Below are positions 30,965 to 36,793 of a stretch of DNA of 64,000 nucleotides, one piece after another. Every line of letters begins with the position of its first letter. Position 1 is the stretch's first letter. The notes beneath the pieces are model-generated. The model saw only the letters and a program-made list of their open reading frames with translations. It had not been told where the DNA came from and made no database searches. This DNA comes from Georgenia soli (GTDB taxonomy: Bacteria; Actinomycetota; Actinomycetes; Actinomycetales; Actinomycetaceae), in contig NZ_PDJI01000004.1 of assembly GCF_002563695.1 (NCBI RefSeq), forward strand, positions 3,472,001 to 3,536,000, written 5' to 3'. Both the position numbers and the translations under genes were made by a program.

Positions 30965-31444
30965 GTGACCAGGAACTTTGCATTCGCGGCCACCGTGCTG
31001 GTGGCGCTGGGAGGTTGCACCGCGACCATCCCGACCGACCCTGACGGCACGCTGGACAGGGTGAGCGGCGGGACGCTGAGGGTCGGCGTGTCGCCCAGCC
31101 CGCCGTGGACCGACCTCCCGGACGGCCCGAACGGTGAACCGGCCGGCACCGAGGTCGAGCTGGTCGAGGAGTTCGCCCGCAGCATCGACGCCGAGATCGT
31201 GTGGGTCCCGGGCGGCGAGGAGGAGCTGGTGGGCCAGCTCGAGCACGACGAGCTCGACCTGGTGATCGGCGGGCTCACCGCGAAGTCGCCGTGGTCGAGC
31301 AAGGTCGCGCTGACCTACCGCTACGTCTCCACCACCGGGCCCCGCGGGGAGAAGGAGCTGCACGTCATGGCCGCGCCCATGGGCGAGAACGCCTTCCTCG
31401 TGGAGCTCGAACGGTTCCTCCTCGACCAGGACCTGCCGGCATGA
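30965..31444 (+). CDS. Half-size solute-binding lipoprotein
   Basis: The product is 159 residues. A lipoprotein signal (TRNFAFAATVLVALGGC, Cys18) leads into a SBP_bac_3-like lobe: GGTLRVGVSPSPPWTD, AGTEVELVEEFARSI, LDLVIGGLTAKSPWS. It then jumps to a terminal helix (ENAFLVELERFLLD) that normally ends the full protein. The second lobe of about 100 residues is missing, so it is unlikely to clamp an amino acid in the classical way. GTG at 30965 is the start. Its stop overlaps the CDF-like transporter as ATGA, suggesting they act together at the membrane. Confidence 0.7.
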   Translation: MTRNFAFAATVLVALGGCTATIPTDPDGTLDRVSGGTLRVGVSPSPPWTDLPDGPNGEPAGTEVELVEEFARSIDAEIVWVPGGEEELVGQLEHDELDLVIGGLTAKSPWSSKVALTYRYVSTTGPRGEKELHVMAAPMGENAFLVELERFLLDQDLPA

Positions 31445-32442
31445 GCGCGCGGTTCGGGAGGACCGAGCTCCCCGAGGAGCAGGAGCGGGCCCTGCGCCGG
31501 GCCGTCCGTCTCGCGTGGCTGACGATCGCGTTCCTCGTCACCGCCGTCACCGGGGTGTACCTGGCGATGGGCAGCTCGCAGGCGATGAAGGCCGCGTGGA
31601 TGGAGGACATGCTGTCCTTTATCCCGCCGGTCGCCTTCCTCCTCGCCGTGCGCCGGACCCGCCGCCCGCCCACCCCCGAGCACCCGTACGGCTACCACCG
31701 GGCGGTCGGGGTGGGGCACCTCGTCGCCGCCACCGCGCTGCTCGCCATGGGCGCGTTCATGGTCTTCGACTCCGCGTCCGGCCTCGTCAAGGCGGAGCAC
31801 CCGCCCGTCGGCCTGATCGAGGTCGGCGGGTTCACGCTCTGGTCCGGGTGGCTCATGATCGCCGTCATGGCGTACACGGCCGTGCCGCCGGTGCTGCTGG
31901 GTCGGGCCAAGATGCCGCTCGCGGAGGCGCTGCACGACAGGGTCCTGTACGCCGACGCCGACATGAACAAGGCCGACTGGATGACGGCGGTCGGGGCGAT
32001 CGTCGGCATCCTCGGGATCGGGCTCGGGCTGTGGTGGGCGGACGCCGTGGCCGCCCTGTTCATCTCCGGCAGCATCCTCAAGGACGGGATCACCAACCTC
32101 AAGGTCGCCGTCGCGGCCCTGATGGACGCGCGCGCCGAGACCTACGACGGGCGCGACCCGCACCCGCTGGTGCTCGCGATCGACGAGCAGCTCGGCGCCG
32201 TCGATTGGGTCGAGGAGGCCCGCAGCCGCGTGCGCGACCAGGGCCACGTGTTCCACGTCGAGTCCTTCGTGGTGCCCCGGCCGGGCTACCACCCGACCCT
32301 CGAGGACCTCCGGCTCGCGCGCGAGCACGTCGTCGACCTCGACTGGAAGGTCGACGACATGGTGGTCATCCCCGTCGAGGAGCTGCCGGACAGGATGCTC
32401 CCCGGGGTGAAGGAGCAGGCGGGCAGCCACGACGCCGGCTGA
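31441..32442 (+). CDS. Cation diffusion facilitator-like transporter
   Basis: The product is 333 residues with about six transmembrane helices (for example AWLTIAFLVTAVTGVYLAM, HLVAATALLAMGAFMVF, GWLMIAVMAYTAV) and a cytoplasmic C-terminal domain. The layout and ADADMNKADWMTAVGAIVGILG resemble CDF metal exporters. The canonical HxxxD pairs of TM2 and TM5 are not matched; TM5 has D-M-N-K-A-D. It may carry Mn, Fe or another ion, or have a different function. It is translated together with the half-size lipoprotein. Confidence 0.7.
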   Translation: MSARFGRTELPEEQERALRRAVRLAWLTIAFLVTAVTGVYLAMGSSQAMKAAWMEDMLSFIPPVAFLLAVRRTRRPPTPEHPYGYHRAVGVGHLVAATALLAMGAFMVFDSASGLVKAEHPPVGLIEVGGFTLWSGWLMIAVMAYTAVPPVLLGRAKMPLAEALHDRVLYADADMNKADWMTAVGAIVGILGIGLGLWWADAVAALFISGSILKDGITNLKVAVAALMDARAETYDGRDPHPLVLAIDEQLGAVDWVEEARSRVRDQGHVFHVESFVVPRPGYHPTLEDLRLAREHVVDLDWKVDDMVVIPVEELPDRMLPGVKEQAGSHDAG

Positions 32443-33722: not shown

Positions 33723-33854
33723 TTCAGGTCCGACAGGCAGCGGTGCCCCGGTTGCGGCACGGCCGGAGCGGCGGTTCCCTGGCCCGAAGGGTGCTTCGCC
33801 GCCCGGCCGGTGGTGCGACGACCGGTGGACGCCGGTGACGACGAGGAGGTTGCC

Positions 33855-36314
33855 ATGGGACGAGTGGACCGGATAGCCGACGTGTGGGGGACGCGGACGC
33901 CCTACGGGCAGGGCGAGACGTGGCCCACCCGCGTGGACACGCACCTGGAGGAGGGGCTCGGCCCGGAGGACGTGGACCGCTGGGTGCAGACGGCGTCGAT
34001 CATGCACTCCAACGGGGACGCCCTCGACATCGCCGTCAAGGACGACCGCATCGTCGGGGTCCGGGGCCGCGCCGTCGACCGGGTCAACCACGGCCGGCTC
34101 GGGCCGAAGGACCTGTTCGGCTGGCAGGCCAACGCCTCGCCCGACCGGCTCACACGGCCCCTGGTCCGCAAGAACGGCGAGCTCGTCGAGACGTCGTGGG
34201 AGGAGGCGATGGACGCCGTCGTCGGCCGCACGAAGGAGCTGCTGGAGGAGCAGGGGCCGAGCGCCGTCGGGTTCTACACCACGGGCCAGCTCTTCCTGGA
34301 GGAGTACTACACGCTCGGCCTGATCGCCCACGGCGGGATCGGCACGAACCACGTCGACGGCAACACCCGCCTGTGCACCGCGACGGCGGCGGCCGCGCTG
34401 AAGGAGTCCTTCGCCTCCGACGGGCAGCCCGGCTCGTACACGGACATCGATCACGCCGACGTCATCGCCCTGTACGGCCACAACATGGCCGAGACCCAGG
34501 TGGTGCTGTGGACGCGCATCCTCGACCGGCTCGCGGGCCCCAACCCGCCGGCGATCATCTGCGTGGACCCGCGGCCCACCCCCGTGGCGCAGCACGCGAC
34601 CGTCCACCTGGCGCCCCGGCCCGGCACGAACGTCGCCCTGATGAACGGCCTGCTCCACGAGATCGTGGCCAACGACTGGGTCGACCACGACTACGTCGAG
34701 GCCCACGCCGTCGGCTTCGAGGAGCTGGCGAAACGGGTGAAGGACTACCCGCCGGAGCGGGTGGCGCAGATCTGCGACGTCCCGGAGGCGGACCTGCGCG
34801 AGGCTGCCCGGCTCATCGGCACCGCCGACCGGCTGATGTCCACGGTGCTGCAGGGCTTCTACCAGTCCCACCAGGCGACGGCGGCGTCCGTGCAGGTGAA
34901 CAACATCCACATCGTCCGCGGCATGCTCGGCCGCCCGGGCTGCGGGCTGCTGCAGATGAACGGTCAACCCACGGCGGAGAACACCCGCGAGGCGGGCGCC
35001 GACGGTGACCTGGCCGGCTTCCGTAACTGGTCCAACGACGCGCACGTGGAGGACCTGGCGCGGGTCTGGAACGTCGACCCCATGGACATCCCGCACTACT
35101 CCCCGCCGACGCACGCCATGCAGATGATGCGCTACGTCGAGGAGGGGTCGATCCGGATGCTGTGGGTCCAGGCCACCAACCCGGTGGTCTCGATGCCGGA
35201 GCTCAACCGGATGCGGTCGATCCTCAGCCAGGAGCGGCTCTTCCTGGTGGTCCAGGACATCTTCCTCTCGGAGACGGCGCAGCTCGCGGACGTGGTGCTG
35301 CCCGCCGCGACGTGGGGGGAGAAGACCGGGACGTTCACCAACGCGGACCGCACGGTGCACCTGTCGGAGAAGGCGGTGGACCCGCCCGGCGAGGCCCGGC
35401 CGGACCTCGACATCTTCATCGACTTCGCCCACCGCCTGGGCCTGAAGGACAAGGACGGCGCCCCGCTGGTGAAGTGGTCCACGCCGGAGGAGGCCTTCGA
35501 GGCGTGGAAGGAGTGCAGCCGCGGACGGCCGTGCGACTACTCGGGCATGTCGTACGAGAAGCTGCGGGGCGGGAGCGGCATCCAGTGGCCGTGCACCGAC
35601 GAGGCGCCCGACGGCACCGAGCGCCTGTACGCCGACGGGAAGTTCTTCGCCGACCCGCAGTACTGCGAGAGCTACGGCCGCGACCTCATCACCGGGGCCC
35701 CGCTCGAGCCCGACGAGTACAAGGCGATGAACCCCTCCGGCAAGGCGGTCATCAAGTTCGCCGAGTACCTGCCGCCGCACGAGCTGCCGAGCGAGGACTT
35801 CCCCCTGCAGCTCATCACCGGACGGACCGTGTACCACTTCCACACACGCACCAAGACCGGCCGTGCGCCGCAGCTGCAGGCGGCGGCGCCGGACGTGTGG
35901 GTGGAGGTCTCGGCCACCGACGCCGAGCTGCTCGGGCTGGAGGAGGGCGACCTCACCGAGATCTCGACGCCGCGGGGCAGCGTCCGCGCCCGGGCGCGGG
36001 TCAGCGGCATCCGGGAGGGCGTCGTCTTCCTCCCGTTCCACTACGGCTACTGGGACGTGGGCGGTCACGAGCCCGACGGCGAGGGCCGGGCCGCGAACGA
36101 GCTCACCATCACCGACTGGGACCCGGCGTCGAAGCAACCCATCTTCAAGACGGCGGCCTGCCGGGTGACGAAGGTGGGGGCGGGCGGCGGGACTGCGTCC
36201 CCGGCGCCGACGACGACGGCGTCCGCTCCGCTCGCGGGGGACGTGCCGCCCACGCGCGGCGGGGCAGGGGCCGACGTCGACGAGGAGCTGGCCACGGCTG
36301 GAGGTGCGCGATGA
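33855..36314 (+). CDS. Molybdopterin oxidoreductase lacking the [4Fe-4S] cysteines
   Basis: The product is 819 residues of the DMSO-reductase superfamily (formate dehydrogenase/NapA side). The Mo-bis-MGD regions are present, including LIAHGGIGTNHVDGNTRLC, whose Cys174 fits the Mo-ligand position, GLLQMNGQPTAEN, VQATNPVVS and the C-terminal cap (RTVYHFHTRTKTGRA). At the N-terminal cluster site the pattern C-x2-C-x3-C is replaced by Ser48, His51 and Asp55, and the fourth ligand by Gly83 (RLGPK). No twin-Arg signal is seen, so it is cytoplasmic. GAGGAGGTTGCC precedes the ATG. It overlaps the next gene as ATGA. Substrate and electron partner are unknown. Confidence 0.82.
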   Translation: MGRVDRIADVWGTRTPYGQGETWPTRVDTHLEEGLGPEDVDRWVQTASIMHSNGDALDIAVKDDRIVGVRGRAVDRVNHGRLGPKDLFGWQANASPDRLTRPLVRKNGELVETSWEEAMDAVVGRTKELLEEQGPSAVGFYTTGQLFLEEYYTLGLIAHGGIGTNHVDGNTRLCTATAAAALKESFASDGQPGSYTDIDHADVIALYGHNMAETQVVLWTRILDRLAGPNPPAIICVDPRPTPVAQHATVHLAPRPGTNVALMNGLLHEIVANDWVDHDYVEAHAVGFEELAKRVKDYPPERVAQICDVPEADLREAARLIGTADRLMSTVLQGFYQSHQATAASVQVNNIHIVRGMLGRPGCGLLQMNGQPTAENTREAGADGDLAGFRNWSNDAHVEDLARVWNVDPMDIPHYSPPTHAMQMMRYVEEGSIRMLWVQATNPVVSMPELNRMRSILSQERLFLVVQDIFLSETAQLADVVLPAATWGEKTGTFTNADRTVHLSEKAVDPPGEARPDLDIFIDFAHRLGLKDKDGAPLVKWSTPEEAFEAWKECSRGRPCDYSGMSYEKLRGGSGIQWPCTDEAPDGTERLYADGKFFADPQYCESYGRDLITGAPLEPDEYKAMNPSGKAVIKFAEYLPPHELPSEDFPLQLITGRTVYHFHTRTKTGRAPQLQAAAPDVWVEVSATDAELLGLEEGDLTEISTPRGSVRARARVSGIREGVVFLPFHYGYWDVGGHEPDGEGRAANELTITDWDPASKQPIFKTAACRVTKVGAGGGTASPAPTTTASAPLAGDVPPTRGGAGADVDEELATAGGAR

Positions 36315-36793
36315 AGATCGGGCTCGTGCTGAAGGAGCTGCACCGCTCTGAGAACGACCTCGCCCACGAGCTGCTGCAGGTCTCGGACCGGCACAAGGTC
36401 GACCACGAGATCTACCACGTGGCCCGGGACCTGGCGCAGTGGTCGCAGCGCCACGTCAAGGAGATCGCCGCGATCGCCGAACGCTACGGCGAGAAGCTCG
36501 ACCCGGAGCCGGAGGGGGAGTCCCACCTCGCCGAGCGGCTCATCGACAAGGGGTCGGAGCTGATGGGCCGCGCGAAGACCCCCGGGCTCCTGATGCTCCG
36601 CGACCTGCGCGAGCTCTACATGAAAGCCTCCGGGGTCTCCGTCGACTGGGAGATGCTCGCCCAGGCGGCGCAGGGCATCAAGCACACCGACCTGCTCGAG
36701 GTGTGCCAGCGGTGCCACCCCGACACGCTGCGGCAGATGCGCTGGGCCAACGGCAAGCTGAAGGAGGCGTCGACCCAGGCCATCGTCAGCTGA
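36311..36793 (+). CDS. Helical partner protein of the molybdoenzyme
   Basis: The product is 160 residues, nearly all helical. The N-terminal half is rich in His, Glu and Asp (E9, H11, H19, E20, H28, D31, H32, E33, H36, H48), suggesting a metal-binding four-helix bundle. The C-terminal half ends with C-x2-C-H (Cys132, Cys135, His136), a haem c-like motif, but no signal peptide is present, so covalent haem is unlikely; zinc or structural use is possible. It starts at an ATGA overlap with the molybdoenzyme and is almost surely its partner. Confidence 0.65.
   Translation: MKIGLVLKELHRSENDLAHELLQVSDRHKVDHEIYHVARDLAQWSQRHVKEIAAIAERYGEKLDPEPEGESHLAERLIDKGSELMGRAKTPGLLMLRDLRELYMKASGVSVDWEMLAQAAQGIKHTDLLEVCQRCHPDTLRQMRWANGKLKEASTQAIVS

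Follow-up and report, generated by a model that had tools for sequence, protein, structure and literature searches.

A cluster-free group of Mo/W-bisPGD oxidoreductases standing near the NapA and formate dehydrogenase (Fdh) families is, as far as its sequences tell, real and widely conserved. Its member in Georgenia soli is the large subunit P0001, located in the window (the whole 64,000-nucleotide stretch of DNA analysed here), and the features described are given in Table 1.

Table 1. Features of the P0001 gene pair in the window, and one feature at another locus.
Feature	Position	Strand	Basis
Large subunit P0001, 819 aa, putatively cluster-free Mo/W-bisPGD oxidoreductase	33855..36314	+	open frame, domains, predicted fold
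AGGAGG, Shine-Dalgarno-like, 5′ of ATG at 33855	33844..33849	+	sequence
Codons 48-55; Ser48, His51 and Asp55 on the C-x2-C-x3-C ligand positions	33996..34019	+	alignment
Codons Gly83-Pro84-Lys85-Asp86; Gly83 at the fourth Cys position, Asp86 group-specific	34101..34112	+	alignment
Cys174 codon, candidate Mo ligand	34374..34376	+	aligned with NapA RLC
Small partner gene, 160 aa, predicted ferritin-like four-helix bundle	36311..36793	+	ATG overlaps large-gene stop (ATGA)
Cys-rich four-helix copper-binding gene	L125 3913-4314		

The HMMER alignment with Desulfovibrio desulfuricans NapA shows that the four cluster cysteines correspond to Ser48, His51, Asp55 and Gly83 of P0001, the residues which the initial annotation had placed at the cluster-ligand columns. 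Cys174 aligns with the Cys of the NapA motif RLC, which we take to be the Mo ligand, and Lys85, preceding Asp86, matches the Lys directly following the fourth NapA Cys, a residue presumably situated between cluster and pterin. Cysteine ligands elsewhere in the N-terminus were looked for, and no Cys occurs before Cys174. The frame is intact and both molybdopterin domains are present, in agreement with the earlier reading that Cys174 and the bis-MGD regions are kept, and Cys174 is found in 133 of 133 no-Cys rows. No export signal was seen by eye on P0001 and the enzyme is probably cytoplasmic. Promoter and terminator scans, a repeat search and phage records yielded nothing relevant.

By its Pfam domains P0001 belongs to the Mo/W-bisPGD (DMSO reductase) superfamily, PF00384 (211.8 bits) and PF01568 (100.2 bits) both scoring above cut-off. 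PF04879 (Molybdop_Fe4S4), a domain that is anyway absent from some superfamily members, had no match in P0001. In precomputed Pfam assignments it is present in the listed Cys-bearing proteins and absent from the listed P0001 relatives, and in a mixed alignment of 50 rows (19 no-Cys and 31 Cys-bearing) it matched 31 rows, the identities of which are unnamed. The scores of P0001 were below cut-off for NapA (TIGR01706, 331.4 versus 930.55 bits; NF010055, 343.4 versus 904 bits), NasC (NF047855, 432.4 versus 1100 bits), formate dehydrogenase alpha (TIGR01591, 464.2 versus 666.25 bits), TorA/DorA/BisC (TIGR00509, 118 versus 1017.55 bits) and AioA (TIGR02693, 166.7 versus 359.05 bits). P0001 is without the four cluster cysteines of NapA, and shares with TorA/DorA/BisC a catalytic subunit devoid of cluster Cys. 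For its predicted fold the best solved match was NapA (2v45; E 2.2e-64, 31% identity, TM 0.80), and the TM values to DMSO reductase (1eu1) and MtsZ (7l5i) were 0.58 and 0.63, respectively.

Conservation was assessed in the best 120 of 7999 scored candidates, P0001 included, and in the best 80 of 580 confirmed loci of a public-genome scan, the latter from Georgenia, Arthrobacter, Blastococcus, Streptomyces, Rhodococcus, mycobacteria and others. His51, Asp55 and Asp86 were present in all 119 nearest homologues among these best candidates (120 of 120 with P0001), in 13 of 13 more distant aligned members and in all 80 of the best genome loci, and Cys174 was invariant in the 120 listed rows. Position 48 was S in 67, T in 52 and A in one of the same rows, and position 83 was G in 118 and D in two. 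The first 110 or so residues were free of Cys in 76 of the 80 genome loci. At the columns initially read as S/H/D/G the close homologues thus have His and Asp fixed, S/T/A at 48 and G/D at 83, and the nearest of them share the no-Cys pattern (119 of 119 listed), by which P0001 is not a lone copy among homologues that keep Cys. In 19 of the 80 genome loci (L009-L088) Asp replaces Gly at position 83, a fourth possible ligand there.

The dN/dS of P0001 against four relatives was 0.15-0.20, hence purifying selection is acting, and a lone mutant or decay, of which the initial annotation had dismissed decay, was rejected on this value together with the conservation of His51, Asp55 and Asp86. A non-catalytic role as a degenerate pseudo-enzyme would explain why a usually conserved cofactor is gone, and stops were found within the match in 3 of 17 sampled no-Cys copies (G053, G237 and G290), but with purifying selection, an invariant Cys174 and both molybdopterin domains kept, this explanation is scarcely credible.

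Relatives of 57-63% identity were found by a plasmid search in Deinococcus, Hymenobacter, Halomonas, Curtobacterium, Arthrobacter and Gloeothece, with 42% in Staphylococcus, and those whose sequence was inspected carry C-x2-C-x3-C and Gly at the fourth place. The pattern C, C, C, G with Gly86 occurred in 240 of 240 proteins listed by searches from two such three-Cys enzymes, these rows including both queries and being the best-scoring part of much longer lists in which rare exceptions may exist. The 31 aligned three-Cys members are 56-65% identical to P0001 and are like it in the Mo-ligand Cys, the small partner or domain and Gly83, but differ in retaining C-x2-C-x3-C and Gly86. All four cluster cysteines are present in 6 of 6 inspected relatives below about 40% identity (L107, L108, L109, L111, L115 and L116). 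Because the listed sisters all carry Gly at 83, the Gly83 of P0001 derives from a three-Cys ancestor, and the order of change was from four Cys to three Cys and Gly, and then to none. The claim that every ligand was replaced accordingly stands for positions 48, 51 and 55 and not for Gly83, and Asp86 had been overlooked; the switch goes from C,C,C,G to S/T/A,H,D,D at positions 48, 51, 55 and 86.

A quick tree was built from 63 sampled rows with the first 94 residues excluded. In it the four-Cys sequences form the outgroup, with long branches flagged among their rows, and the three-Cys enzymes are the neighbours of the no-Cys group. One clade (SH-aLRT 94) unites the no-Cys group with the actinobacterial three-Cys enzymes and stands beside the remaining three-Cys enzymes. 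The no-Cys group is in two parts on this tree, a single clade being compatible as well (p-AU 0.40), and there may have been two losses of the cluster ligands, or one regain.

Several sources name the three-Cys sisters without the fourth cluster Cys (L118, L119, L120 and L122; P0122-P0361) as ordinary nitrate reductases. They are a candidate [3Fe-4S] or open-site [4Fe-4S] family, and we know of no characterised member of these 'nitrate reductases' with an adjacent or C-terminal four-helix domain. His609 was tried as their fourth ligand and rejected, since it is His in 236 of 243 but, by eye, Lys in the distant Staphylococcus relative. In Streptomyces sp. DH24 a three-Cys and a no-Cys copy lie about 5 kb apart in one genome (L027, about 4818 and 10001). 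Three-Cys genes split over two frames were seen in Arthrobacter sp. StoSoilB13 (L123 5965-8401) and Gloeothece verrucosa (L124 5768-8103).

The two groups were compared column by column, 133 no-Cys against 243 three-Cys rows, over those of columns 1-777 with an occupancy of 90% or more in each group. Residues did not overlap at all at positions 48, 51, 55 and 86 only, and three further columns (201, 486 and 609) had an overlap below 5%. A control split of fused (120) against actinobacterial three-Cys enzymes (121 rows), with a median identity of 0.61, gave columns 136, 571 and 658, none of them in the cluster site; the median identity between no-Cys and three-Cys enzymes is 0.61-0.64, so that they differ outside the cluster site too, but inconsistently. 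Set against either three-Cys subgroup by itself, the no-Cys group had two additional separating columns (92 with 93 in one case, 658 with 766 in the other). The lack of any fully separating column outside the cluster site implies that the catalytic half should share the chemistry of the three-Cys enzymes, and it speaks against a relay-free enzyme with a redox-neutral or internal reaction, like transhydroxylase or acetylene hydratase. Such a reaction would tolerate the loss of the cluster and fits with the finding that the noisy de novo clustering of neighbours gave no conserved electron donor gene beside the P0001 group, yet it is very unlikely.

The strictness of the His51, Asp55 and Asp86 conservation would seem greater than an inert filler needs. 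It may be that the cluster site was turned into a mononuclear Fe, Mn or Zn site by these three residues, together with Asp83 or Ser/Thr48 in some members, serving as a one-electron relay or structurally. Three metal-type side chains are invariant at the places formerly taken by two ligands and a neighbouring Gly, and the recurrent Asp83 would suit as an extra metal ligand, but positions 48 and 83 are variable and the His and Asp residues are equally well explained as a hydrogen-bond network, which leaves such a metal site a possible though rather unlikely outcome.

The small ferritin-like gene beside P0001 was overlooked in the initial annotation. It lies 3′ of the large gene in 79 of 80 loci, and the contig of the 80th stops inside the large gene. 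In a phylum sample of 296 genomes the small protein was found in 18, of which 17 also have a no-Cys or three-Cys large gene. In Halomonas (P0122) it is fused to the three-Cys large subunit, and the C-termini of 120 of 120 proteins listed from this fusion align with it. In de novo neighbour clustering the small gene emerged as a single cluster from 38 loci; the other clusters resemble shadow frames, and with clustering this noisy the conclusions on neighbours rest on targeted searches. Synteny, and the fusions found in relatives, show the small protein to be a steady partner of the large subunit, with which it would be in physical contact. Its predicted structure has the ferritin-like four-helix fold, and His28, Asp31, His32, His48, Asp98, Cys135 and His136 are present in 74 to 79 of 79 small proteins. 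Pfam and NCBIfam assigned it to no family, its identity to bacterioferritin and YciE/YciF is 6-12%, a sequence search of the PDB gave no convincing match, and Foldseek E values were never below 0.016. The conserved residues, the ferritin-like fold and the steady pairing with the large gene agree with a redox cofactor, di-metal or heme, held by the small protein and replacing the cluster as electron mediator. From conservation alone, however, the ferritin ExxH pairs are not apparent at the expected helix places, and the small domain is shared by the three-Cys relatives and so did not evolve to replace the cluster, by which this role is considered distinctly unlikely.

A nitrate reductase function is suggested by the names in the source databases and by the gene neighbourhoods of relatives. 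Of seven annotated three-Cys loci, three (L118, L120 and L124) have a gene of the HPP family, one of them also with FNT, and in the Gloeothece HPP locus (L124) the large and small genes are broken. HPP proteins move nitrite into chloroplasts (the accessible part of PMC8774688, citing Maeda 2014), and this together with the adjoining HPP and FNT genes points to nitrate as the substrate of the three-Cys enzymes. The case for nitrate is weaker for the no-Cys group, and relatives of the Deinococcus HPP or FNT were found in the fetched flanks of none of the 80 loci (E 1e-12). The host genome (99.57% complete) holds no NIR_SIR protein, no HPP protein and no NirB above cut-off, and usual nitrite assimilation therefore appears not to be possible in the host; its one FNT gene is distant from P0001. 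NirB was found in 9 of 17 genomes with a no-Cys gene (missing in 8) against 30 of 279 others, an excess that common ancestry by itself may account for. A different P0001 relative (37-39% identity) matches 25 to 86 bases from the nirB match in G076, G195, G237 and G290, and the no-Cys gene of G076 lies about 6 kb away from this pair. For the no-Cys group, nitrate or some other oxyanion or N-oxide is the most likely substrate.

A Cys-rich four-helix copper-binding gene was present in the fetched flanks of 18 of 80 loci (e.g. L024, L070 and L035), and in 8 loci it lies no more than 300 bases upstream of the no-Cys gene, divergently in 7 of them. It was also found within 6 kb of three (H1, H2 and H3) of the six annotated plasmid copies (H1, H2, H3, H5, H6 and H7). 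The same search detected none in the Georgenia window. A TPP-requiring protein is encoded near 3 of 6 annotated plasmid copies (H2, H5 and H7) but near 5 of 80 genome loci. The setting may be that of a stress island, and an enzyme freed of a cluster sensitive to copper and oxygen would be in keeping with it. On leaves, transcripts labelled 'PF00384, PF01568' were 29.7-fold up in late season, with MAG classes including Actinomycetia (accessible part of PMC9950430). This pair is the Pfam make-up of the no-Cys group, and other families may share it. At 30965-32442 the window encodes part of a family 3 solute-binding domain, in a frame of 159 residues, and after it a cation efflux protein; these were considered apart from the molybdoenzyme since each had a tblastn match in only 1 of 80 loci. 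A combination in which a His/Asp/Asp mononuclear metal in the former [4Fe-4S] cavity relays single electrons to molybdopterin, fed by the ferritin-like partner and perhaps aiding survival of oxygen or copper, is improbable.

P0001 is most likely a Mo-only reductase, resembling BisC and TorA in its working and NapA and Fdh in its descent. The fuller proposal, a two-protein NapA/Fdh-type Mo-bisPGD reductase in which the cluster was lost in two steps, electrons are delivered directly and an oxyanion or N-oxide is reduced, has about an even chance of being right. As the sequences show, the fourth Cys first became Gly in an ancestor shared with the three-Cys relatives, and then C,C,C,G changed to S/T/A,H,D,D with no other position becoming fully group-specific. 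His51, Asp55 and Asp86 would occupy the empty cavity as a polar network, and the electrons of an external donor would pass along the pterin directly to Mo, as in BisC and TorA, probably a delivery different from that of the nearest relatives. The reaction at Mo would probably be the reduction of nitrate or a similar oxyanion or N-oxide, because nitrite-transporter genes sometimes adjoin the sister enzymes.

In NarG, substitutions of Cys ligands of the proximal cluster block even the insertion of the Mo cofactor (accessible part of PMC10609526), in contrast to this large natural group without those ligands whose sisters keep three. The four fully separating positions form a natural experiment on the role of the cluster in electron transfer and cofactor insertion, and they occur in proteins labelled nitrate reductase that apparently cannot supply the usual nitrate assimilation in the Georgenia host. 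A literature search, mostly outside subscription journals, turned up no description of the no-Cys group, including in the accessible parts of PMC7816997, PMC10609526, PMC5123574, PMC7331816, PMC5432002 and PMC9950430. NasN (MSMEG_4206) was considered as a characterised member and discarded, being of 1351 aa with extra domains (accessible part of PMC7816997).

Compared with known systems, D. desulfuricans NapA (2nap/2v45) is like P0001 in its fold and in the Cys at the Mo-ligand place, and unlike it in having four cluster cysteines and a periplasmic location. AioA, which retains three cluster Cys, departs like P0001 from the four-Cys cluster, although P0001 is below the AioA cut-off. AioA has a [3Fe-4S] cluster and Mo without a side-chain ligand, as stated in the accessible part of PMC5432002. 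TorA/DorA/BisC are likewise cluster-free, but more distant from P0001 than NapA is by TM and family score. The Mo ligand in TorA/DorA/BisC is Ser. Mo-bisPGD is their sole prosthetic group, and BisC is not exported (both from the accessible part of PMC10609526). The initial impression that no enzyme of this kind had been characterised thus fails for cluster-free enzymes as such, as TorA/DorA/BisC are characterised; the unusual point is the position of P0001 nearer to NapA and Fdh than to TorA/DorA. With cluster-free superfamily members already known, the novelty would lie in a cluster-free enzyme nearer to NapA and Fdh than to TorA/DorA.
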